DNA of 39,083 nt from Anaerolineales bacterium (GTDB taxonomy: Bacteria; Chloroflexota; Anaerolineae; Anaerolineales; Villigracilaceae), in NCBI GenBank assembly GCA_030824405.1, contig JAVBXV010000237.1, forward strand, positions 1 to 39,083, written 5' to 3'. Below the pieces are notes generated by a model. It had not been told where the DNA came from. It searched no databases and worked only from the letters and a program-made list of their open reading frames with translations. Of the stretch, positions 504 to 37,337 are shown piece after piece (position 1 is the stretch's first letter; the number at the start of each line of letters is the position of its first letter). The translations under genes and the position numbers were made by a program.

Positions 504-593
504 GGCGGCAATGATCTGATACCCTAACTTGGACGCTTACAGGTTATCAGGGAGCAAATAGCGAAACCGGCCTTTCTGGCCGGTTATTTGTTT
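504..593 (+). promoter_or_regulatory. Duplicated structured leader, copy 1
   Basis: About 90 nt just upstream of the secreted PxKF protein, repeated at 3093-3182 with only four differences (507, 510, 541, 549), all A/G transitions. Hairpin A: CCCT 522-525 plus AACTTG 526-531 pair with CAGGTT 540-545 plus AGGG 549-552 around the loop GACGCTTA. Two of the four differences lie in this stem and keep pairing (U-A becomes U-G). Hairpin B follows at 555-590. I do not recognise a known riboswitch class in it. The layout (aptamer-like hairpin, terminator-like hairpin, then a hairpin around the ribosome binding site) suggests a cis-acting regulatory RNA; that role is inference. Confidence 0.6.
555..593 (+). 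terminator. Terminator-like hairpin inside leader copy 1
   Basis: CAAAT (555-559) and AACCGGCC (565-572) pair with GGCCGGTT (578-585) and ATTTG (586-590) around the loop TTTCT; the bases gcga and one A form a bulge. A short T-rich tail ends at 593. It sits 20 nt upstream of the start codon of the next gene, so it could act as an attenuator rather than as the end of an upstream unit. No upstream plus-strand gene needs it. Confidence 0.6.
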
Positions 594-595
594 AA

Positions 596-610
596 GTTCC
601 GGGAGGGAAC
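596..610 (+). promoter_or_regulatory. Ribosome binding site held in a small hairpin, copy 1
   Basis: GTTCC (596-600) pairs with GGAAC (606-610) around the loop GGGAG. The Shine-Dalgarno GGGAGG is therefore the loop plus part of the stem, two bases before the ATG at 613. The same 15 bases occur at 3196-3210 before the second PxKF gene, although the bases between the leader and this hairpin differ, so the hairpin itself appears conserved. Confidence 0.6.
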
Positions 611-2889: not shown

Positions 2890-3092
2890 TTCATACCAAT
2901 TGAAAGAGGCTAGGATCATCAGTTATTAAAAGTAAAGAACGACAGGTTGTATGGCCTATAAAAGGCAGCCTCGCAAAACTGGAAATTTCTCTTTCAATTT
3001 TGACATGATCTTTTTTATGGAGAAATCTGACATGAAAATTCATTATGGAGGCGCAAGGGGATAAACAATTTCTTACACATGTACGAAATTCT
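2890..3092 (+). other. Intergenic region before the second leader element
   Basis: No gene supported. TTGACA at 3000-3005 could be a -35 box, but the matching -10 (around 3023) is poor. Nothing else organised is visible until the leader starts at 3093. Confidence 0.45.
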
Positions 3093-3182
3093 GGCAGCGA
3101 TGATCTGATACCCTAACTTGGACGCTTACGGGTTATCGGGGAGCAAATAGCGAAACCGGCCTTTCTGGCCGGTTATTTGTTT
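3093..3182 (+). promoter_or_regulatory. Duplicated structured leader, copy 2
   Basis: Second copy of the element at 504-593, offset by 2,589 bp. Hairpin A: CCCT 3111-3114 plus AACTTG 3115-3120 with CGGGTT 3129-3134 plus GGGG 3138-3141. Hairpin B spans 3144-3179. Sequence upstream of 3082 is not shared with copy 1, so the conserved unit is sharply bounded. It precedes the second secreted PxKF protein. Confidence 0.6.
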
Positions 3183-3195: not shown

Positions 3196-3210
3196 GTTCC
3201 GGGAGGGAAC
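3196..3210 (+). promoter_or_regulatory. Ribosome binding site held in a small hairpin, copy 2
   Basis: GTTCC (3196-3200) and GGAAC (3206-3210) enclose GGGAG, as at 596-610. The Shine-Dalgarno GGGAGG (3201-3206) places the true start at ATG 3212, not at the in-frame TTG 3194. Confidence 0.6.
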
Positions 3211-3211
3211 A

Positions 3212-4726
3212 ATGAACACAAAATTTGCAGGTAAAGTACTTCGTATGTTCTTTGTACTTACCTTTTTGCTAGGAACTGTTTCTACATCTAGGGTTCATGT
3301 GAAGGCTCTTAATGATGCTGTATTTACTCCACACACAATCGCTGTCTGGCAGGATAGCAGTGATCGTTGGTGGGTTGAAAATGACTATTATAGAATCGAA
3401 TTAACTGAATTTTCATCCCTCGTAGTTAAGTCGGGTGATTCTGATAGTGAGTGGAAAATTTTCAGCAATTGGCCTTGGCTGAGCAGTCATGCAGTGACAT
3501 TTTCAGGGCAATTTTATCGCCTGTTATATGGGAATGGGACACCTATTACTGTTGATGTTTTGGAACAAACTGTTGATTATGTCATTATTAGAGTTATGAG
3601 TGTGGCAAGCGCTGACGAAAATGTGGTGTTGCAGAATATGTTCACATTTAATGTTTCCACCCCAGAAATTAAAGTGGACTCTGAACTTATAGGAGCTGCT
3701 GATTCGTCCCTTTTCGAGGCTATAACCTATAACCTTTTCCTGTCACCTGGTGGCGATATATCAAATGATTGGTATGACTGGCCCGGTGGCGAACCAAATG
3801 TATTCCCATATAACGGCTGGGACACAATTTATACTTCTGAATTTACTCCTATCAACAATCACATATATATTGCTACTTATGATCTTAACAAGAAGCAAGG
3901 GATTGCTCTCATCAGCAACCTTAATGATACCTCTGAATTTACAACAGACATTCGATATGGCCGAGCTTCTGTCGAAGGTACTTATGGAGCGTATGATCCA
4001 GACAGCCTGTTGTCCATGGCCGGTGATCGTAAAACTTCATTTTATATCTACCTATTTGATGTCGAAGATTCTGATCCGGTTGCTAAAATAGAGTCTTTTC
4101 TTCAAGACCTTCACTCCAACCAATCCCCAGTTGCTGATGCTGGTGAACCTTACACAGTATTTGCGGGAGACATAATTACCCTTGATGCGTCTACCTCGTC
4201 CGATCCCGATGGCGATGTACTGACCTACGAATGGGATTTGGATAACGATGGCCAGTACGATGAAGCAAGCGGGGTAATCATCACAACATCATTCAACCAA
4301 GTCGGAGATCATATCATCGGCTTGCGCGTTACAGACTCAGGTGGATCCAGCGATACAGATACTGCCATAATAACCATACTGCCCTGGACGCTGAAGGGTT
4401 TCTACCAGCCCGTTGACATGAACGGCACGTACAACATTGTTAAAAGCGGAAGCACCATCCCCTTGAAGTTTGAGATATTTGCTGACTCCACGGAGCTGAT
4501 CGATATTACTTATATCAAGAGCCTTACATACGTTCAAACATCCTGTGATGTGAATGCAACTACAGATGAAATTGAGACGATAGCAACGGGCAACACCAGT
4601 CTACGCTATGCCGATGGTCAATTCATCTACAACTGGAAGACACCCAACACCGCTGGAAGATGCTACCGAGTGACGATGACTACTATTGATGGTTCGTCCT
4701 TGGCGGCATATTTCAAGCTCAAATAA
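3212..4726 (+). CDS. Secreted protein with PKD and PxKF domains
   Basis: Predicted exported protein of 504 residues, role unknown. Residues 1-31 form a signal peptide. Residues about 34-300 are a beta-rich region (AVWQDSSDRWWVENDYYRIEL onward, split here: AVWQDSSDRWW then VENDYYRIEL) that I do not recognise; its layout is vaguely like carbohydrate-binding or mutarotase-like folds. A PKD domain follows at about 302-388, with SPVADAG, DASTSSDPDGD and YEWDLDNDG. The C-terminal PxKF domain (389-504) nearly duplicates that of the upstream gene. The start at ATG 3212 is fixed by GGGAGG six bases upstream and by analogy with the first gene. Both genes share leader, ribosome-site hairpin and C-terminal domain but not the central part, so they look like one regulated pair of surface or matrix proteins with exchanged cores. 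Confidence 0.8.
   Translation: MNTKFAGKVLRMFFVLTFLLGTVSTSRVHVKALNDAVFTPHTIAVWQDSSDRWWVENDYYRIELTEFSSLVVKSGDSDSEWKIFSNWPWLSSHAVTFSGQFYRLLYGNGTPITVDVLEQTVDYVIIRVMSVASADENVVLQNMFTFNVSTPEIKVDSELIGAADSSLFEAITYNLFLSPGGDISNDWYDWPGGEPNVFPYNGWDTIYTSEFTPINNHIYIATYDLNKKQGIALISNLNDTSEFTTDIRYGRASVEGTYGAYDPDSLLSMAGDRKTSFYIYLFDVEDSDPVAKIESFLQDLHSNQSPVADAGEPYTVFAGDIITLDASTSSDPDGDVLTYEWDLDNDGQYDEASGVIITTSFNQVGDHIIGLRVTDSGGSSDTDTAIITILPWTLKGFYQPVDMNGTYNIVKSGSTIPLKFEIFADSTELIDITYIKSLTYVQTSCDVNATTDEIETIATGNTSLRYADGQFIYNWKTPNTAGRCYRVTMTTIDGSSLAAYFKLK
4380..4726 (+). repeat. PxKF-encoding direct repeat, copy 2
   Basis: Partner of 2543-2889, same length of 347 bp. The 59-bp identical block is 4550-4608; flanking parts are diverged. 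Confidence 0.75.
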
Positions 4727-28661: not shown

Positions 28662-31600
28662 TTATACGGTCAAAAATCCTGTTTCACTGAGATATTTATA
28701 ATACGTGGCGGTCAGTTGTTCATCGAATGGCGGGCATTCGATCCCAGCGTTGGAAAGGACTTCTGCCGTACGTTTGCAATCTACTTGCTGGTCGATCAGT
28801 TCCGGACGCTCCGAAGGGAAGAGCGGCAGCAAAGGCAGAAGATCGTTATCAATATTCATTGCCGCTTGTTGTATCAGCATATCGCGCCATTCTTTGTAAG
28901 AAACTTCGCACAGATGACCGGCGGTGCCTGACCAATTCAACAAATTATTCAATGGCGTTGATTGCGGGTTGGTCAAATGGAATATCTGACCGGGCGCATC
29001 CTGCCACAGCGACAGATGCGCGATGCCACGACTTACATAATCCACCGGGACGACATTAATGCTCATATTCCGGTCTGGAACCATACCCAACTGATAACTG
29101 CCCTTCACAAGCCTGCTGGCGAGGTCTATCGTATTGGTTGCGCCTGTACGGCTATCGCCCGTAATAACTCCCGGTCTGTAAATTGAACAAGGAATGCCGC
29201 GCTCATGTGCCTGACGGATTAACTGCTCTGCGACCCATTTGGTTTGCATGTAACCGCCGCGAAGTTCGGCAGGATCCGGGTAATCCGTTTCAGACACCGG
29301 CTCAGGGCGCGCTCCGCCTGATGAGAAGAATACCGCAATGGTGGATACATAATGAACAGGCTTGATACGCGTATGACAGGCAAGCCGCAGCGTCTCTTCA
29401 ACACTGCTCACGTTGACCGGCTTAAGCGCAGAATATGGCTGGATCAAGTTCAATTCCGCGCCGTTGTGATAGATCACATCAATCTTCTCTGCCAACTCCT
29501 TGTATTTTTCATCGTTCAAGCCAAAGGCAGGCAGGGCAAGGTCACCCACCATCACACGGATGCGAGGTTCGTATTCCTTGCGCCATAATCCATAGGACAC
29601 CAAGCTGTCATGCAAACGGCGCTTCCCACTCTCTTCATCAGATGCGCGAACCAGGCAGTACACATCTGCATCCAGCGTTTGTAAAAACTCTGCCAACAGG
29701 TATGAACCGAGGAAGCCCGTTGCGCCAGTTAAGAAGATAGAGGCTGGGGATGTTGCAGCAGGTTTTAAATGGCTGCCAATTTGAATGTCCGAAGGAAGCG
29801 TTGCTTCAGCGATCAGATCAACATCAGAATCATATGCACCGATGCCGCCATCCTTTTCAGGTTTCACGGCATTGTTCATCACACGATCTACGATCACAGC
29901 GGCAACATCACGAATGGAGGCGTTGCTCGAAATATCGCCTGCCGTCAACGTAAGGTTCAACTGCGAACCAATGGAGATACTTAACTCAATGGTCATCAAA
30001 GAGTCGAGGCCAAAATTCTTAAGCGGCACCTCGCGGTTGATCTGATCGATGGAGGTATTCAATATCTTCGCCACCATCTTACTGAGGAAGGTTTCAACCA
30101 TAGCTTGTCTTTCCGCTGGTTTTGCGGCAGCGATCTGTGCGGCAAGATCGCCGTTGGAATTCTCGCCATCTTCCTTTTGTGTTAATGTTTCGAATACTCC
30201 AGAGTTGGCAACCCACAACAGGAAACGACTCAGTTTATCCCAATCGACAGCAGCGATGGCAAGTTGAGGCACATTCAGTTTTAGGCTGGTTTGAAGCGCC
30301 GCAAGAGCAGCGGAGGATGGAATGGGTTTCACACCGCCTCTCATCATAAAATTACCAGCAACAGCATCACGCGCCACGACTCCCGCATCACCGATCACAC
30401 CCCAATTGATGGTCAGAGCAGGCAGACCTTGAGCATGACGATGATTTGCAAGGGCATCGAGGAATGCGTTACCCGCACTGTAATTGGCTTGACCGCCCGT
30501 GCCGATAATGCTGGAGATCGACGAGAAGGAAATGAAATGCTCCAGCGGAATGGATAGGGTTGCTCTATGTAAATTCAATGCTCCGAGCATTTTGGGCAGG
30601 AAGGCATCCATAAAATCATCATCGGTCATATTCACGATCATCTTGTCACGCAGCACCATCGCACAATGAACAACCCCCGCCAGAGGCGCATCACTTTCCT
30701 GAATTTGACAGATGACTCGTTCCACATCTTCTTGTTTGGTGACATCACCGCGCAAGTCCATCACAGTTACCCCGCTCGTTTCCAACGCCGCAATGCTTGC
30801 AATGGCAATTTCACTCTGCGGTCCGCTCCGCGACATCAACGCCAGATGACGGACACCCTGACGCGCCATCCACTTTGCCACTTCCAGACCAAAACCACCA
30901 GCGCCGCCTGTGATGAGATAGTTTGCATCAGGCTTGAACAAATAGCCTTCCTCGGTGATCGTGCCTACAGGGAGGTTATCCACATCAAACGATAGAACAT
31001 TTTTACCGATATGCTTCCCCGATGCCATGTAGCGGAATGCCTGCTCCGCTTCGGTCACTGGAAAAACACGAACATGGATCGGGTTATAAATCCCTTTCTC
31101 GAACTTATCACACAGAACTTCCAGCATGTCAGCGAACTCATGCGGACGATGCTCCATCAACTGCGCAAGGTCTATGATATGAACCGAAATATTATTGCGC
31201 AGCGCTTCAAGCCCGACCTTGCTATTGTTATATACATCGATCTTGCCGATCTCCAAATAACGCCCAAACGGAGCAAGCACAGAAAAATTCTTCGGAATGA
31301 AATCGCCAGCCAGCGAATTCAGCACCGCATCCACACCGCGTCCATTTGTAACCTTCAAAATCTCTTCGGCAAAATCCAAACTACGCGAATCAAAGACATG
31401 CTCAATGCCCTGTTCCTTCAAGAACAAACGTTTTTCAGGTGAGCCTGCTGTGGCAAAAATCTCCAAGCCGATCTCTTTTGCAACTTGTATGGCAGCCTGC
31501 CCCACACCACCCGTTCCGGCATGGATCAAAATTTTCTCACCGGTGCGCATCTGCGCAAGATGCACGATCGCATAATATGCGGTTAAAAATATTGTCGGCA

Positions 31601-34600
31601 GCGAAGCCGCCTCTTCAAACGTCATACTCGCAGGCTTCTTGAACACAGCGCGATGATGCACACTTAAAGGAGAACGGAATGCGTACGGCGCCATCCCCAA
31701 CACCGCATCACCCGTCTTGAAATTCTGGACATCCGCGCCCACAGACAACACTGTCCCTGCAAAATCATCACCCAGCCAAGTCAGGTCACGCGGATTGCCA
31801 GGGTACATGCCAAGCGTTTTCATCACATCGCGGAAATTAATTCCGCCCGCCTTAACCTGCACCTCGATCTCATCCGCCGCAGGAATTTGACGCGGAGTTT
31901 GGTTGATGCTGAGATTCGCGAGCGACCCTGGCGTTTCAAACTGGAGACGGAAAGCAAACCCAGCGCCTCCCTTCGACGTTTCAGCCTGTTTCTGTTTAAT
32001 AGGCAGATTCTCAGCCCTAACATTTTGCAAACGATTGACGTACCGTCTTCCATTTCGATAGGCAATTTCCAACTCGCCATCAGGAGAAATGATCTCGCGT
32101 ACTATGTTCTGCACTTCGCCTGCTTCATGGTTTGCATCCAGATCGATCAAACGCCAGCCATTCGCAGGCATTTCATTATTGGCAACACGCATAACGCCCA
32201 TGATCGGCGAACTTGAAACAGCGCCCGCCGAATCACCATCAAGAACCAATTGCACATCCCGCGTCAGGATAAATACCTGCGGCGGGCGTGAAAGCCTGGC
32301 ATTGTCGAAAGCACGCGCCAAACGAAGGATATGCAAAGCGCCCTTTTGCTGTGCTTCAAGCATTTCTTCATTTGTTCCTGAGTCGGTCGGCACACATTCC
32401 ATGCCCCAACCATGCACAATCGCCACGAGCGGATTATCATCCGTATTCGCAATGGACAATAACATGCCCAAATCGTCAACCTGCTCAGGGTTGACCTCGC
32501 AGGTCTCTGCATCAATCGAATTGAAGGCTTCTCCTACAACTGCTTTGACAACTCGAAATCCGGCGTTGCGTAATGTTCTACGCAGGTCTTCCGAAAAACC
32601 GTTTTGATCGCCGAAGACCAAAACCGTCTCTGGTTCAGGGTGAGTATCAGATTCAGGTTCATTCTTTATGGGGGCAAGCGCAAGGCAAATAGCATTTCTA
32701 CCTGCACTGTCGAGCGGCACGGTCTGCACCTCACGAAAGCCTGCGTCAACAAACATTTGGTCAACTTGTCCGTTGTCGTGACTAAAGGCAGTACCAAGCA
32801 ATGAAAGCAATGTGGCGAGCAAAAGATTCGGAGAAGTATTTCGATATGAAACAAACAGACCATCTACTGCAAGACACTTCCCTACTTGTGAAAGGTTGGC
32901 AGGCATGGCATCGAAAATATTTGCATTCAGAACAAGGTCGTATCCATGCGTATCGATTCCCTGAGACAACGGATCATTCGCAGGGTCAAACTGCCGCCAC
33001 TTTATGAATGAATATGCCGAAAATTTCTGACGGCTATCCGCAACGATAGTTGAGTTTGTGTCTGTAGCGGTATATTCAGTCCGTTCGGCTGGAAGCACAC
33101 TCAACGCTAATGTGGTAAAAACTCCCCCACCAGCGCCGATCTCCAGAATACGCAATGGGCGGTCGGATGGGGTTTCATCCACGATGCGTTGTAAGAGTGC
33201 CAGCATGGTTTTATGGATGGCAGTAGATTCGGTGCCTTTCTGCTGGAAAGATGCAAGCACTCCCGAAGGAAAAGCATTCTTTGGATCAATGCGACCGCGG
33301 AATATTTTCGAAAATGTGCGCCCTGAAAGCGCATTGACTAGGCTGATTTCCGGGCTGTATTTTTCACCTGCAAGATGAAGCGCATCTGTGAGTGAATGCC
33401 CATCGGCAAATACAGGTTGTTGAATAACCTGCCAGTGATCTTCATCCGTTGCAACAAGGTTGCCATTGGCAGTCAGTGCATTAAGATGCTGTTTGAGCAA
33501 AAACTTCCAGCGTTGGATAATGCCAAGGTCGAGCATCAGTTCATCCAGAGAAAAGATGCGACCCGCAGGGTAATCCCAGCCAAAATCGACGAGATAATTC
33601 TGGATCAATTGCACGATGACCGAATCCACCAGCGGCGCTATCTTTTCAAAATAATCATCCAAGGCTTGATGATCGCTCTGCAATCCCGCGAAAGTTGTTT
33701 CAATAGTGCGGAAATTAGCGGGTGCAATCAACGTTGGGTCTTTCAATCTTTTTTGACGCCATTCGAATTGATAGAGGTGAGCATCCAGATCACTGGCTCC
33801 TGGCGCTCTTTGCTTTACCCTGTCAAAGCGGTAATCTGTGATCTCCACCAACAATTCACCCTGATCATTATATAAAAAGATATCTCCGACCATCGCTTGT
33901 TCAGTCTTTGAAGATAATTTCGTTTCCACCCAAAAATGCGCAGGTAGCTCTTCTGCATGGCGGCGGATACGCCCAAACTTGGCAGGAAGGTATGAAATGG
34001 AATGATTTGGTTTAAAAAAGTCCGTAATACCCCAGGCAACGGAAAATGTTTGCGCGCAGGCATCCAACACAGCAGGATGAAGAATGTAGTCATCAAACTG
34101 TTGGTGAACTGCGTCTCCAACCACCATCTCTGCCAGTGCGTTTCCTCCCATGTGTCCCCATATGTTATGAATATGTTGAAAATCTTTTCCCCATTGATAT
34201 CCTACAGAATGCGAGGTTTTATAAAAAAACTCGCCGTTCCCAATAAATGTATATGGCTTTTTCAATTCATCAAGATCCACAGCTGGACGAGACGAAGTTG
34301 GGAATTTTAACAAATATCCCTTGGCATTAATTTGCCAGTCTTCATCATCACCGTTTGAACTGTAAATGGAAACAGACCTATCATTCTCATCGAACACGAT
34401 CTGCAAGGTGGGAAGCTGCGACGTTGAAACGAATAATGCTTTTTTCATCTCCAACGCTTCAACAACATAGGACTCACCCGGGAAAAGTGCCCGCGCCACC
34501 GCAAGGGTCATCTCGGCATACCCGGTGGCAGGGAAGACAACTACATCCCATAATTTATGGTCATTCAACCAACCCAATGCGCCAGGGTCAACAACAGTCT

Positions 34601-37337
34601 GCCAGGTCGGGTGCGGAGACGCCATACGCATTCCCAAAAGCGGGTGCTCATGCGGCGTGAGATCGATCCTTCGCCGAATCTTCGAATCGAACCAATATGT
34701 CTGATGCTGCCAGGGATACATTGGAAGGCTTACAAAGTCATGACGCCCCTGGTTTACGGCACGCCAATCAACGGAAAGACCATAGATATGCAATGCCGCA
34801 AGATTACCCAGCAGATCCATCGACTCGTCATATTCGCGGCGCAAAGAATAGAACACTTTGCCTTGGGCATTATTCACAGCCAAACAATCATGCAGTGAGT
34901 TTTGCAGGGATGGATGCGCGCCAATCTCAAGGTATGTTGTTTCACCAGATTGAATGAGCCCATTGATGGCATCAGCAAAGCGCACAGGTTGGCGGACATT
35001 GCGCCACCAATATTCGGCATCCATGGTTTCGCCCGCAAGTTCTGCACCCGTTACCGTAGAAATGAAAGGAATAGTTGCCGATCTGGGTTGGATCTCCGCA
35101 AGCTCAGACAATAGGTCAGTTTGAATTGAATCCATTTGGTAGGAGTGAAACGCATAGTTAATGGGCAAACGCCGCACAAACTTGCCGTCCGCCTCAAAGT
35201 GAGCTGCCAATGCCTCAACGGCTGTCACTTCCCCGGCAAGCGTCACCATGGAGGGACTATTCACTGCGCCAACTTGCACAACATCATGATGGCTGTTGAT
35301 GCTGAATTCTGCCTCCGCAGCAGAGACGCCAACAGCGATCATGGCTCCATTCCCACGGGTTTGGTGCTGTAAACGACTGCGGTGATAAATGATCGTAACC
35401 GCATCGTCCAGCGAATAGATGCCTGCAATGTAAGCAGCCGCCACCTCACCCACTGAATGTCCGATCACCTTTTTGGGATGGATGCCCCAACTTTCCCACA
35501 ATGCAGTCAACCCTACTTGCAAAGCAAAAATGGCGGGCTGCGCCACATCGGTATCGTCTATTCGTGAGTCTTGCTCATCGCGAGACATTTCTTCGATCAA
35601 GGTCCAGCCTGTCAGCGGACTTAATAAGGCGTCAATTTCTTCGATCTTCTTTCGGAAAATCGGTTCACGTTCCAACAAATGCCTACCCATCCGCCACCAT
35701 TGTGATCCCTGCCCGGTAAATACAAACACAGGTGGAGCAGGGTTGGCAGAGGGCGAACCCGTGACAGAAGATGGAAACATATTTGAGCGATACAGATAAT
35801 CAAGCAGGTTTGAACGAAGCGCATTGACATCATCCCCAATCACAACCAAACGTTGCTGCAAATGTTCGCGGCGGGAACCTGCCGCAGTCGCGATCTGTTC
35901 GAGTGGAAGATTCGAAGTCCGCAGGAAATCCAGATACGCTTCCGCCTGAGTCTGAAGCGCATGTTCGTCATACGCTGAAATGGGTAAAACAAAGGGACAT
36001 GTCGCGTCGCGCCTTATCGGTTGCTTTGCTTTCGGCGTGGGAGCCTGTTCCAAAACGATGTGGGCATTGGTGCCGCCAAAGCCAAAGGAGTTGACGCCCA
36101 GAATTGCAGGAGCGTCGTTACGACGAGGTAAAGCACGCGCCTCACCGACAACCTCCAGACCGATCTTGTCCATCCCGATATTGGGATTGGCTTTTTCAAA
36201 ATTCAACTGCGGAGGAATGATCTGATGCTGCAAGATCAAACACGCCTTGATCAACCCTGCCATGCCAGACGCACATTCAAGATGCCCAATGTTCGTTTTG
36301 ACAGAGCCGATCAAACATGGGTCATCGGTTGGGCGGTCTTTGCCGAGAACATTGCCCAAAGCACGCGCTTCGATAGGGTCACCAACCGGGGTGCCTGTGC
36401 CATGCGCTTCGATGTATGCGACATCGCGCGTATCAATGCCCGCCTGCCGATACGCCTCACGAAGCATCTCCTCTTGCGCGTACATATTCGGGATGGTCAA
36501 AGAACTGGTGCGACCATCCTGATTAACCACCGCGGCACGGATCACGGCATGAATACGGTCGCCATCTTCCAAAGCCTGATCCAGGGGTTTGATCACAACT
36601 ACCCCTACGCCTTCACTACGAACATATCCATTTGCACGGTGGTCAAAAGCATAGCATGTGCCTGTCGGCGAAAGCATGGATGCCCTGCTGAAACTGATCG
36701 AGACCCCTGGGTTTAAGATGGCATTGACTCCGCCCGCCAAAGCAAGCGACGACTCGCCAGACCAAATGCTCTGACAGGCAAGCTGAACAGCCACCAATGA
36801 TGATGAACATGCCGTATCAATGGCAATGCTTGGTCCTTTTAGATCAAAATAATAAGAAATGCGATTCGCAGAAATACTTAAGGCACTGCCCGTACCGCTA
36901 TGAATATCAACCAGTGAGACATCTCCACGTTGCGCATCAAGCTGATCGTGAGAAGAGATGCCAATGAAGACCCCCACCTTGTTGCCTCTCAATGTACCAG
37001 GAGCGATCCCGGCATTCTCAAAAGCGTCCCAGGTTGTCTCCAACAGCCAACGCTGTTGAACATCCATTTGAATGGCTTCGCGCGGAGAAAGTCCAAAAAA
37101 AGATCCATCAAACTCGGTATGGTTATCAAGAAAACCACCCCACTTTGTCGTCATGCGACTCGGCGCATCACCATTGGGATGAAAATAATTTTTCCAATTC
37201 CAGCGATTCGCAGGAACTTCCGTTATTCCTGATACCCGATTCATCAACATCTGCCAATAAGTTTCAGTATCAGTAACGCCGCCCGGAAAACGACACCCTA
37301 CCCCAACAATTGCTAATACTTGATTGTTGATACCCAT
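28662..37337 (-). CDS. Highly reducing type I polyketide synthase with terminal thioester reductase
   Basis: 2,891 residues, one module. Order: KS (6-430; Cys177 in DTACSSSL, His312 in EAHGTGT, His352 in NIGH), AT (535-860; Ser628 in GHSVGE, YAFHS suggesting malonyl-CoA), DH (898-1175; His927, Asp1092), methyltransferase (about 1390-1560; EIGAGGG), pseudo-KR (about 1568-1770), ER (1795-2116; HAGTGGVGQAA 1939-1949), KR (2137-2370; LITGGAGGFG, Ser2273, Tyr2286), ACP (2412-2487; Ser2446 in FGLDSL) and a thioester reductase (2533-2885; TGATGFLG, Tyr2696, Lys2700). This is the layout of fungal-type iterative reducing PKSs and methyl-branched lipid synthases. The reductase should release the chain as an aldehyde or alcohol. 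The methyltransferase has NIFDA where NVLHA is expected and lacks the later Glu, so it may be inactive. DH motif HxxxGxxxxP has Asp for Gly. The start ATG 37337 has no Shine-Dalgarno. Confidence 0.95.
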   Translation of the reverse strand: MGINNQVLAIVGVGCRFPGGVTDTETYWQMLMNRVSGITEVPANRWNWKNYFHPNGDAPSRMTTKWGGFLDNHTEFDGSFFGLSPREAIQMDVQQRWLLETTWDAFENAGIAPGTLRGNKVGVFIGISSHDQLDAQRGDVSLVDIHSGTGSALSISANRISYYFDLKGPSIAIDTACSSSLVAVQLACQSIWSGESSLALAGGVNAILNPGVSISFSRASMLSPTGTCYAFDHRANGYVRSEGVGVVVIKPLDQALEDGDRIHAVIRAAVVNQDGRTSSLTIPNMYAQEEMLREAYRQAGIDTRDVAYIEAHGTGTPVGDPIEARALGNVLGKDRPTDDPCLIGSVKTNIGHLECASGMAGLIKACLILQHQIIPPQLNFEKANPNIGMDKIGLEVVGEARALPRRNDAPAILGVNSFGFGGTNAHIVLEQAPTPKAKQPIRRDATCPFVLPISAYDEHALQTQAEAYLDFLRTSNLPLEQIATAAGSRREHLQQRLVVIGDDVNALRSNLLDYLYRSNMFPSSVTGSPSANPAPPVFVFTGQGSQWWRMGRHLLEREPIFRKKIEEIDALLSPLTGWTLIEEMSRDEQDSRIDDTDVAQPAIFALQVGLTALWESWGIHPKKVIGHSVGEVAAAYIAGIYSLDDAVTIIYHRSRLQHQTRGNGAMIAVGVSAAEAEFSINSHHDVVQVGAVNSPSMVTLAGEVTAVEALAAHFEADGKFVRRLPINYAFHSYQMDSIQTDLLSELAEIQPRSATIPFISTVTGAELAGETMDAEYWWRNVRQPVRFADAINGLIQSGETTYLEIGAHPSLQNSLHDCLAVNNAQGKVFYSLRREYDESMDLLGNLAALHIYGLSVDWRAVNQGRHDFVSLPMYPWQHQTYWFDSKIRRRIDLTPHEHPLLGMRMASPHPTWQTVVDPGALGWLNDHKLWDVVVFPATGYAEMTLAVARALFPGESYVVEALEMKKALFVSTSQLPTLQIVFDENDRSVSIYSSNGDDEDWQINAKGYLLKFPTSSRPAVDLDELKKPYTFIGNGEFFYKTSHSVGYQWGKDFQHIHNIWGHMGGNALAEMVVGDAVHQQFDDYILHPAVLDACAQTFSVAWGITDFFKPNHSISYLPAKFGRIRRHAEELPAHFWVETKLSSKTEQAMVGDIFLYNDQGELLVEITDYRFDRVKQRAPGASDLDAHLYQFEWRQKRLKDPTLIAPANFRTIETTFAGLQSDHQALDDYFEKIAPLVDSVIVQLIQNYLVDFGWDYPAGRIFSLDELMLDLGIIQRWKFLLKQHLNALTANGNLVATDEDHWQVIQQPVFADGHSLTDALHLAGEKYSPEISLVNALSGRTFSKIFRGRIDPKNAFPSGVLASFQQKGTESTAIHKTMLALLQRIVDETPSDRPLRILEIGAGGGVFTTLALSVLPAERTEYTATDTNSTIVADSRQKFSAYSFIKWRQFDPANDPLSQGIDTHGYDLVLNANIFDAMPANLSQVGKCLAVDGLFVSYRNTSPNLLLATLLSLLGTAFSHDNGQVDQMFVDAGFREVQTVPLDSAGRNAICLALAPIKNEPESDTHPEPETVLVFGDQNGFSEDLRRTLRNAGFRVVKAVVGEAFNSIDAETCEVNPEQVDDLGMLLSIANTDDNPLVAIVHGWGMECVPTDSGTNEEMLEAQQKGALHILRLARAFDNARLSRPPQVFILTRDVQLVLDGDSAGAVSSSPIMGVMRVANNEMPANGWRLIDLDANHEAGEVQNIVREIISPDGELEIAYRNGRRYVNRLQNVRAENLPIKQKQAETSKGGAGFAFRLQFETPGSLANLSINQTPRQIPAADEIEVQVKAGGINFRDVMKTLGMYPGNPRDLTWLGDDFAGTVLSVGADVQNFKTGDAVLGMAPYAFRSPLSVHHRAVFKKPASMTFEEAASLPTIFLTAYYAIVHLAQMRTGEKILIHAGTGGVGQAAIQVAKEIGLEIFATAGSPEKRLFLKEQGIEHVFDSRSLDFAEEILKVTNGRGVDAVLNSLAGDFIPKNFSVLAPFGRYLEIGKIDVYNNSKVGLEALRNNISVHIIDLAQLMEHRPHEFADMLEVLCDKFEKGIYNPIHVRVFPVTEAEQAFRYMASGKHIGKNVLSFDVDNLPVGTITEEGYLFKPDANYLITGGAGGFGLEVAKWMARQGVRHLALMSRSGPQSEIAIASIAALETSGVTVMDLRGDVTKQEDVERVICQIQESDAPLAGVVHCAMVLRDKMIVNMTDDDFMDAFLPKMLGALNLHRATLSIPLEHFISFSSISSIIGTGGQANYSAGNAFLDALANHRHAQGLPALTINWGVIGDAGVVARDAVAGNFMMRGGVKPIPSSAALAALQTSLKLNVPQLAIAAVDWDKLSRFLLWVANSGVFETLTQKEDGENSNGDLAAQIAAAKPAERQAMVETFLSKMVAKILNTSIDQINREVPLKNFGLDSLMTIELSISIGSQLNLTLTAGDISSNASIRDVAAVIVDRVMNNAVKPEKDGGIGAYDSDVDLIAEATLPSDIQIGSHLKPAATSPASIFLTGATGFLGSYLLAEFLQTLDADVYCLVRASDEESGKRRLHDSLVSYGLWRKEYEPRIRVMVGDLALPAFGLNDEKYKELAEKIDVIYHNGAELNLIQPYSALKPVNVSSVEETLRLACHTRIKPVHYVSTIAVFFSSGGARPEPVSETDYPDPAELRGGYMQTKWVAEQLIRQAHERGIPCSIYRPGVITGDSRTGATNTIDLASRLVKGSYQLGMVPDRNMSINVVPVDYVSRGIAHLSLWQDAPGQIFHLTNPQSTPLNNLLNWSGTAGHLCEVSYKEWRDMLIQQAAMNIDNDLLPLLPLFPSERPELIDQQVDCKRTAEVLSNAGIECPPFDEQLTATYYKYLSETGFLTV

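Follow-up and report, generated by a model that had tools for sequence, protein, structure and literature searches.

The structure 3Q3Z represents the c-di-GMP-II riboswitch of C. acetobutylicum. Its ligand contacts are given in PMC7288161 as A13, A14, U37, G39, U60, A61, C68, A69, A70, C71, C72, G73 and A74. The class II riboswitches of C. difficile act as 'on' switches according to excerpts of two reports (PMC6200980, PMC11477304), and the first of these describes them as uniformly 'on', with three of four lying ahead of known or putative adhesins. For Paraclostridium, tandem c-di-GMP-II riboswitches have been described before surface anchor proteins (excerpt of PMC9481103). The c-di-GMP-I riboswitches (GEMM, RF01051) resemble the leaders analysed here in their predicted ligand and in similar target genes, but the two classes are not homologous (excerpt of PMC12452182). 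The same excerpt reports an overall enrichment of riboswitches in Chloroflexota and places c-di-GMP riboswitches mostly in other phyla. Among the literature matches listed, no title or abstract described class II riboswitches in Chloroflexota, and RF01786 members from this phylum may already be recorded in Rfam.

Here, we analysed a window of 39,083 nucleotides (the whole stretch of contig JAVBXV010000237.1 from an Anaerolineales bacterium), in which a first-pass annotation had noticed an element of about 90 nt occurring twice, each time upstream of a secreted PxKF protein. The duplication was recovered as described: the element is found at 504-593 and at 3093-3182, and the two copies differ at exactly four positions, all of which are A/G transitions (507 G/A, 510 A/G, 541 A/G and 549 A/G for copy 1/copy 2). 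Sequence comparison within the window extended the repeat pair to 98 nt (496-593 and 3085-3182, 94% identical). Both leaders folded better than shuffled sequences (z-values of -2.75 and -3.23), and the start codons of the two downstream genes are located at 613 and 3212. The element had been said to fit no riboswitch class, but we found that both leaders are sub-threshold matches to RF01786 (c-di-GMP-II). We consider it highly probable that each leader is a class II c-di-GMP riboswitch functioning as a transcriptional ON switch. Family homology, a conserved core pocket, a covarying structure with its pseudoknot and the overlap of terminator and aptamer support this assignment, and c-di-GMP binding, termination and the ON direction are predicted for the leaders.

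A default Rfam scan of the window was empty because both leaders score below the curated gathering score of RF01786 (42.8 and 40.2 bits vs. 53.5), which is an annotation cut-off and not a structural feature. In a permissive Rfam search, copy 1 matched RF01786 over the full length of the model (1-84) with 42.8 bits and an E-value of 1.8e-8. When the whole own genome was searched with this family, copy 1 was detected with 42.8 bits (E 7.7e-8) and copy 2 with 40.2 bits (E 4.4e-7). RF01786 was the best of its Rfam clan for copy 1; two weaker matches belonged to the same clan and the next family listed reached 16.8 bits. Since our lineage covariance model (R1) includes the window copies, a further model (R2) was built without copies from the window's genus and without copies of the A40 type described below. 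For this purpose, 32 of the 90 same-family copies were used (alignment A3); these, like the 58 of 90 in alignment A1, had been picked for spread and for a shorter P2. R2 detected copy 1 with 61.4 bits (E 2.5e-19, 495-581) and copy 2 with 58.3 bits (E 2.8e-18, 3084-3170), and it matched nothing else in the window at E-values up to 10. The class II-type aptamers extend from 495 to 577 and from 3084 to 3167 on the forward strand. With RF01786 itself, same-family copies reach 62.9 bits, and R2 ties these copies to those of the window. The family RF03170 (c-di-GMP-II-GCG) is also a class II variant and its name also contains GCG, but the window scores poorly with it: only copy 2 was listed (25.6 bits, E 0.05; cut-off 47.9), and we rejected this family as the proper home of the leaders. 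The sister family c-di-GMP-II-GAG was outscored by RF01786 in the within-clan comparison. Matches to c-di-GMP-I (RF01051) were absent from the window at the gathering threshold and from positions 440-640 at E-values up to 10.

Judged by its sequence, the leader adds a member to a class already described, placed within a Chloroflexota group that has its own pseudoknot sequence. It shares with RF01786 and 3Q3Z the order of elements, P2, the pseudoknot, the UUGG ... GAGC ... AACCGG core, the core pocket and the surface-protein targets. In contrast, the RF01786 consensus pseudoknot reads GCAC/GUGC, whereas the lineage copies mostly carry UCGC/GCGA and the window copies ACGC/GCGA; moreover, P1 of the window is short and most same-family copies fall below the gathering threshold. 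In copy 1, P2 is formed by about 516-525 with 541-550 (C522/U544 unpaired), and the pseudoknot strands lie at 533-536 (ACGC) and 561-564 (GCGA). The first-pass annotation had stated that its hairpin A keeps base pairing in both copies, and this is confirmed: positions 541 and 549 lie within P2, where copy 2 has U-G pairs in place of U525-A541 and U517-A549.

In the 58-copy alignment, the class II structure including the pseudoknot had 86.4% of the cells paired, compared with 68.1% after shuffling and 31.5-44.2% in slid controls, over which the tested structure has an advantage since its design relied on the family consensus and on the aligned copies themselves. Changes on both sides were seen at 18 of the 21 pairs. 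Not one of 500 shuffles reached any of the five measures, although related sequences can exceed shuffles in such a comparison. Thus, covariation, the lack of which had been named as evidence against a regulatory RNA, is present. For the pseudoknot, the pairs of which were absent from every structure supplied to the models here, 97.0% of the cells were paired over the 58 copies and two of the four pairs change on both sides. P1 was paired in 74.4% of the cells; in the window it consists of two G-C pairs, an unpaired stretch and then at best four weak outer pairs. The folding programs used have neither pseudoknot nor ligand in their model, and by energy alone, copy 1 shows just the outer P2 pairs, and the hairpin preferred by copy 2 is a different one, incompatible with P2. 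This favoured hairpin of copy 2 (CGAUGAUCUG/CGGGUUAUCG, 3098-3138, forward strand) appears by eye to be helped by the A-to-G change at 3099.

Three of the four pseudoknot pairs form in the window, and pair 40-68 (3Q3Z numbering) is A-A in both copies. We followed this position through 89 anchored copies, which are the 90 same-family places minus one without anchor (G028:C11) and still include the mis-anchored G005:C148, which accounts for the odd U-U and G-U entries. For pair 40-68, we counted U-A in 71 copies, G-C in 8 and A-U in 1, and 8 copies are unpaired (A-A 4, C-A 3, G-A 1); at pair 42-66, there are 87 G-C and 1 A-U. The A-A combination occurs in both window copies and in two relatives. 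The A40 type is also present in genomes G087, G048 and G024, but in G048 it forms an A-U pair. Two sister copies of the own genome (contigs C93 and C79) carry the normal U-A. The A-A mismatch might tune the affinity or the specificity of the aptamer.

The 3Q3Z numbering was placed provisionally on the leaders through the CAACCGA stretch of the contact list and the sequence of the RNA. On this basis, the ligand strand of copy 1 (A565, A566, C567, C568, G569; forward strand) corresponds to A69-G73. Among the 89 copies, A69, A70, C72, G38 and G39 are invariant (89/89), and C71 (88), G73 (86), U37 (85) and A61 (82) are nearly so. With this provisional numbering, the contacts U37, G39, A61, A69, A70, C71, C72 and G73 are kept in both window copies and A14 is kept in copy 2 only. 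The window differs from 3Q3Z at A13, U60, C68 and A74, all of which are variable across the 89 copies; in its type, A13 is replaced by C, and both U60 and C68 are replaced by A.

The first-pass annotation had also pointed to a terminator-like stem at the end of the element, and such hairpins are indeed present at 565-585 and 3154-3174. The two hairpins of the leader depend on each other: the 5' arm of the second one, the terminator, is the ligand strand of the aptamer. The putative intrinsic terminator of copy 1 spans 553-593 on the forward strand, with a core of 565-572/578-585 in the pattern scan and a T-rich end. In the fold it comprises 566-572/578-584 and a lower stem of 553-560/585-592, and the hairpin 552-592 has an energy of -18.6 kcal/mol. 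In copy 2, it spans 3142-3182 (forward strand; core 3154-3161/3167-3174) with a lower stem like that of copy 1. The pattern scan yielded 2 sites in total against a shuffle mean of 2.3, and since shuffles give as many sites, position and conservation support the terminators and not their count. Promoter-like sites numbered 7 in the window (shuffle mean 6.1).

Since the core terminator stem starts at A69, either the aptamer or the terminator can hold the ligand strand A69-G73 together with the 3' side of P1, and the two forms exclude each other. This corresponds to the layout of an ON switch. When pseudoknot and ligand are left out, the terminator form is the energy minimum, and leaving nt 65-76 unpaired costs 15.7 kcal/mol in copy 1 and 16.2 kcal/mol in copy 2. 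An exact-complement test detected terminators in 37 of the 90 leaders, where shuffling would give 8.1, and 30 of the 37 had a T-rich tail, but the test missed G-U pairs and was therefore replaced by folding. Here, we found at least five of nt 65-74 paired downstream in 79 of 88 leaders (G005:C148 and the too short G098:C25:12-121 left out) compared with 54.6 after single-base shuffling, which makes this statistic modest because the shuffled T-rich downstream sequence also pairs. Pairing of nt 65-74 together with a T-rich tail was observed in 73 of 88 leaders vs. 31.6 shuffled.

According to the proposed mechanism, at low c-di-GMP the 3' strand of the aptamer (A565 onwards) would pair with the following sequence and form the intrinsic terminator, and transcription would stop before the gene. 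At high c-di-GMP, ligand and pseudoknot would retain this strand in the aptamer; the terminator would be blocked and the polymerase could continue into the gene of the secreted PxKF protein. ON logic is expected for the window leaders by analogy with the C. difficile riboswitches Cdi-2-1 to Cdi-2-4, which in the excerpts of PMC6200980 and PMC11477304 precede adhesin and type IV pilus genes. In contrast to these, the window leaders belong to another phylum and their switching is predicted, whereas that of C. difficile was established by expression data.

The sequences around the element had been described as different between the two copies. This applies to the outer flanks, but an exact repeat close to each start codon had been overlooked. 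This repeat, GTTCCGGGAGGGAAC, lies at 596-610 and 3196-3210 (forward strand) and forms a hairpin with GTTCC and GGAAC as stems and GGGAG as loop (-5.5 kcal/mol for copy 1), which carries the Shine-Dalgarno sequence in its loop. In the own genome, it occurs exactly in the two window copies only, and one further place has two mismatches. Six of the 90 riboswitch leaders contain the exact hairpin (two in the window, one in G087, two in G048 and one in G042), and in G024 two leaders have it with changed stems. By a simple rule applied without a control, 14 of the 90 leaders have a Shine-Dalgarno sequence in a hairpin loop. That this hairpin acts as a translational effector is a guess. It appears unlikely to us that the type found in the window, with its A40-A68 mismatch, C in place of A13 and a short P1, constitutes a working class II branch with shifted ligand preference or affinity, supplemented by a translational gate through the Shine-Dalgarno hairpin.

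Further copies, which the first-pass annotation had wanted to see elsewhere, precede many different genes across other genomes. A DNA-only search retrieved just the two leaders and short pieces, so that a covariance model was needed. In the own genome, RF01786 also matched convincingly on C93 (35.5 bits) and on C79 (33.1 bits); a match on C393 (27.3 bits) lies inside 23S rRNA and was rejected as false. With R1, the two window copies and those on C93 and C79 scored 63.8 to 70.3 bits and the next candidate 15.9, and since the genome is 85% complete, it may hold additional copies. Among 100 genomes of the same family, 48 contained RF01786 matches (90 places at E-values up to 0.01), but just 5 places in 4 of these 48 genomes exceeded the cut-off. 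In the same class, 43 of 298 genomes had matches, 12 of them above the cut-off, and R1 was found in 94 of 400 genomes of the phylum (E up to 0.001). In 14 control genomes, RF01786 gave no match at the cut-offs of the same-family and same-class surveys; at a loose E-value of up to 10, weak matches appeared in 10 of the 14, none above the cut-off. An exact search of named genomes for the aptamer 3' strand yielded 107 stretches, and 76 of the 80 listed had titles of Chloroflexota; the other four came from Roseibium, a Bacillota MAG, Mycolicibacter and a Patescibacteria MAG. These data suggest that most class II riboswitches of the window's family escape notice at the current Rfam threshold and that a revised model would recover them. 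One IMG/VR viral contig holds the aptamer 3' strand exactly (L250, 161-181, reverse strand). In the genome G098, class II was matched 12 times; several of these matches are arranged in tandem (on C25, C79, C78 and C113) and some lie ahead of similar 74-aa proteins (L057, L058, L081, L095). The window copies resemble the Paraclostridium tandems in being several and in their surface-protein targets, and some relatives are also tandem, but in the window the copies are 2.6 kb apart and each has its own gene.

Over aptamer and terminator, the window copies are 90% identical to each other, and each is 86% identical to the copy of the same-genus genome G087 and 83% to one in G048, which belongs to another genus and likewise has two such leaders, 4.4 kb apart. 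The likeness to the G087 copy indicates that the duplication is not fresh; an old duplication or gene conversion would fit the leader pair. The first-pass annotation had left the choice between selection and recent copying, and it is selection that is borne out by the covariation over 58 copies, whereas recent copying is contradicted by the 86% likeness to G087. Taken together, the leader is a real and conserved element that looks functional.

Several features of the window copies would also suit other explanations. A derived class II aptamer, the pocket of which has drifted to another ligand such as cGAMP or pGpG while the same terminator is switched, could account for the A-A beside the ligand strand, shared by 4 of 89 copies, and for the exchanges at A13, U60 and C68. 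An altered class II family has been noted with RF03170, though it fits poorly, and a G20A mutant of class I can bind cGAMP according to the excerpt of PMC7288161. However, A69, A70, C71, C72, G73, U37, G39 and A61 are unchanged, the sister copies on C93 and C79 keep the normal U-A, GGDEF proteins are plentiful in the own genome and the genes that follow resemble typical class II targets; a drifted ligand is quite improbable in our opinion. Alternatively, a decayed aptamer might explain why P1 is short, why the mismatch is present, why copy 2 has a competing fold and why the scores stay below the threshold; the terminator would then have been left as a constitutive attenuator with a small c-di-GMP effect. 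Such decay is very doubtful, considering that the copies differ by four transitions over 90 nt, that the two in P2 keep pairing and that G087, G024 and G048 have retained the type, the last of them with an A-U pair.

We give practically no credence to an unrelated new leader class or to a mere recent duplication of a gene block whose terminator is ordinary. The empty default scan and the similarity of the gene ends (the 3' parts of genes 1 and 2 are 87% identical over 300 nt) would be compatible with it, but R2 matches the leaders at E-values below 1e-17, covarying copies stand before different genes in many genomes and the identities to the G087 copy speak against a fresh duplication. A gene-block duplication alone was rejected in view of the different downstream genes and the leader identities.

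The leaders precede two genes on the forward strand, both of which encode proteins with signal-peptide-like starts. Gene 1 (613-2889) encodes 758 aa with a C-terminal PxKF domain (residues 649-758), and gene 2 (3212-4726) encodes 504 aa with a PKD domain (PF18911, E 7.7e-15) and a C-terminal PxKF domain (residues 395-504). The PxKF domains noted before were confirmed with NCBIfam NF038114 (E 5e-31 and 8.9e-34). Gene 1 also contains an internal repeat, the copies of which (739-1038 and 1273-1572) are offset by 534 nt and share 72% identity over 300 nt. When a simple rule based on hydropathy was applied, 61 of 70 distinct first downstream genes (start within 320 nt, at least 100 aa or cut by the DNA end) had signal-peptide-like starts, compared with 13 of 103 other ORFs of at least 200 aa from the same loci and the window, some of which are perhaps not genes. 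The proposal of a cis-regulatory RNA with a terminator ahead of secreted proteins is thus supported by these starts, by family homology, by covariation and by the terminator overlap. Among 69 downstream proteins (both window proteins as a whole and 67 others, many of them truncated where the analysed DNA ends), we found DUF11 repeats in 20, an isopeptide-forming fimbrial domain in 16, PKD in 6 and beta-helices in 6; the two PxKF proteins are those of the window, for which a surface or matrix role is predicted. Targets that do not look secreted include a NusG-family protein, a response regulator, an ECF-type sigma factor and an asparagine-synthase-like protein. The NusG-family protein (L023, 918-1424, reverse strand) is nearest to RfaH, though below the cut-off of that model, and at L046 a riboswitch lies 436 nt off a NusG-family gene that looks RfaH-like by eye. 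With a riboswitch before an RfaH-like protein, c-di-GMP may govern a long operon, antitermination being the second step.

The own genome contains 18 GGDEF, 10 HD_5 (the HD-GYP group) and 1 PilZ domain matches, and no EAL domain was found in it. Because of these GGDEF, HD_5 and PilZ matches, c-di-GMP turnover is plausible. The copies on C93 and C79 both stand ahead of genes with signal-peptide-like starts, and the four own-genome copies are predicted to form a small regulon. Sludge granules and biofilms are known to harbour members of the Anaerolineae group. For poorly annotated secreted proteins of these bacteria, our data provide a likely signal (c-di-GMP) and a likely direction (ON), and c-di-GMP control of surface proteins, including PxKF proteins, becomes directly testable in this group. 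Elsewhere in the window (28662-37337, reverse strand), a polyketide synthase of 2891 aa, the end of which is of the reductase type, adjoins glycosyltransferase and ABC transporter genes.
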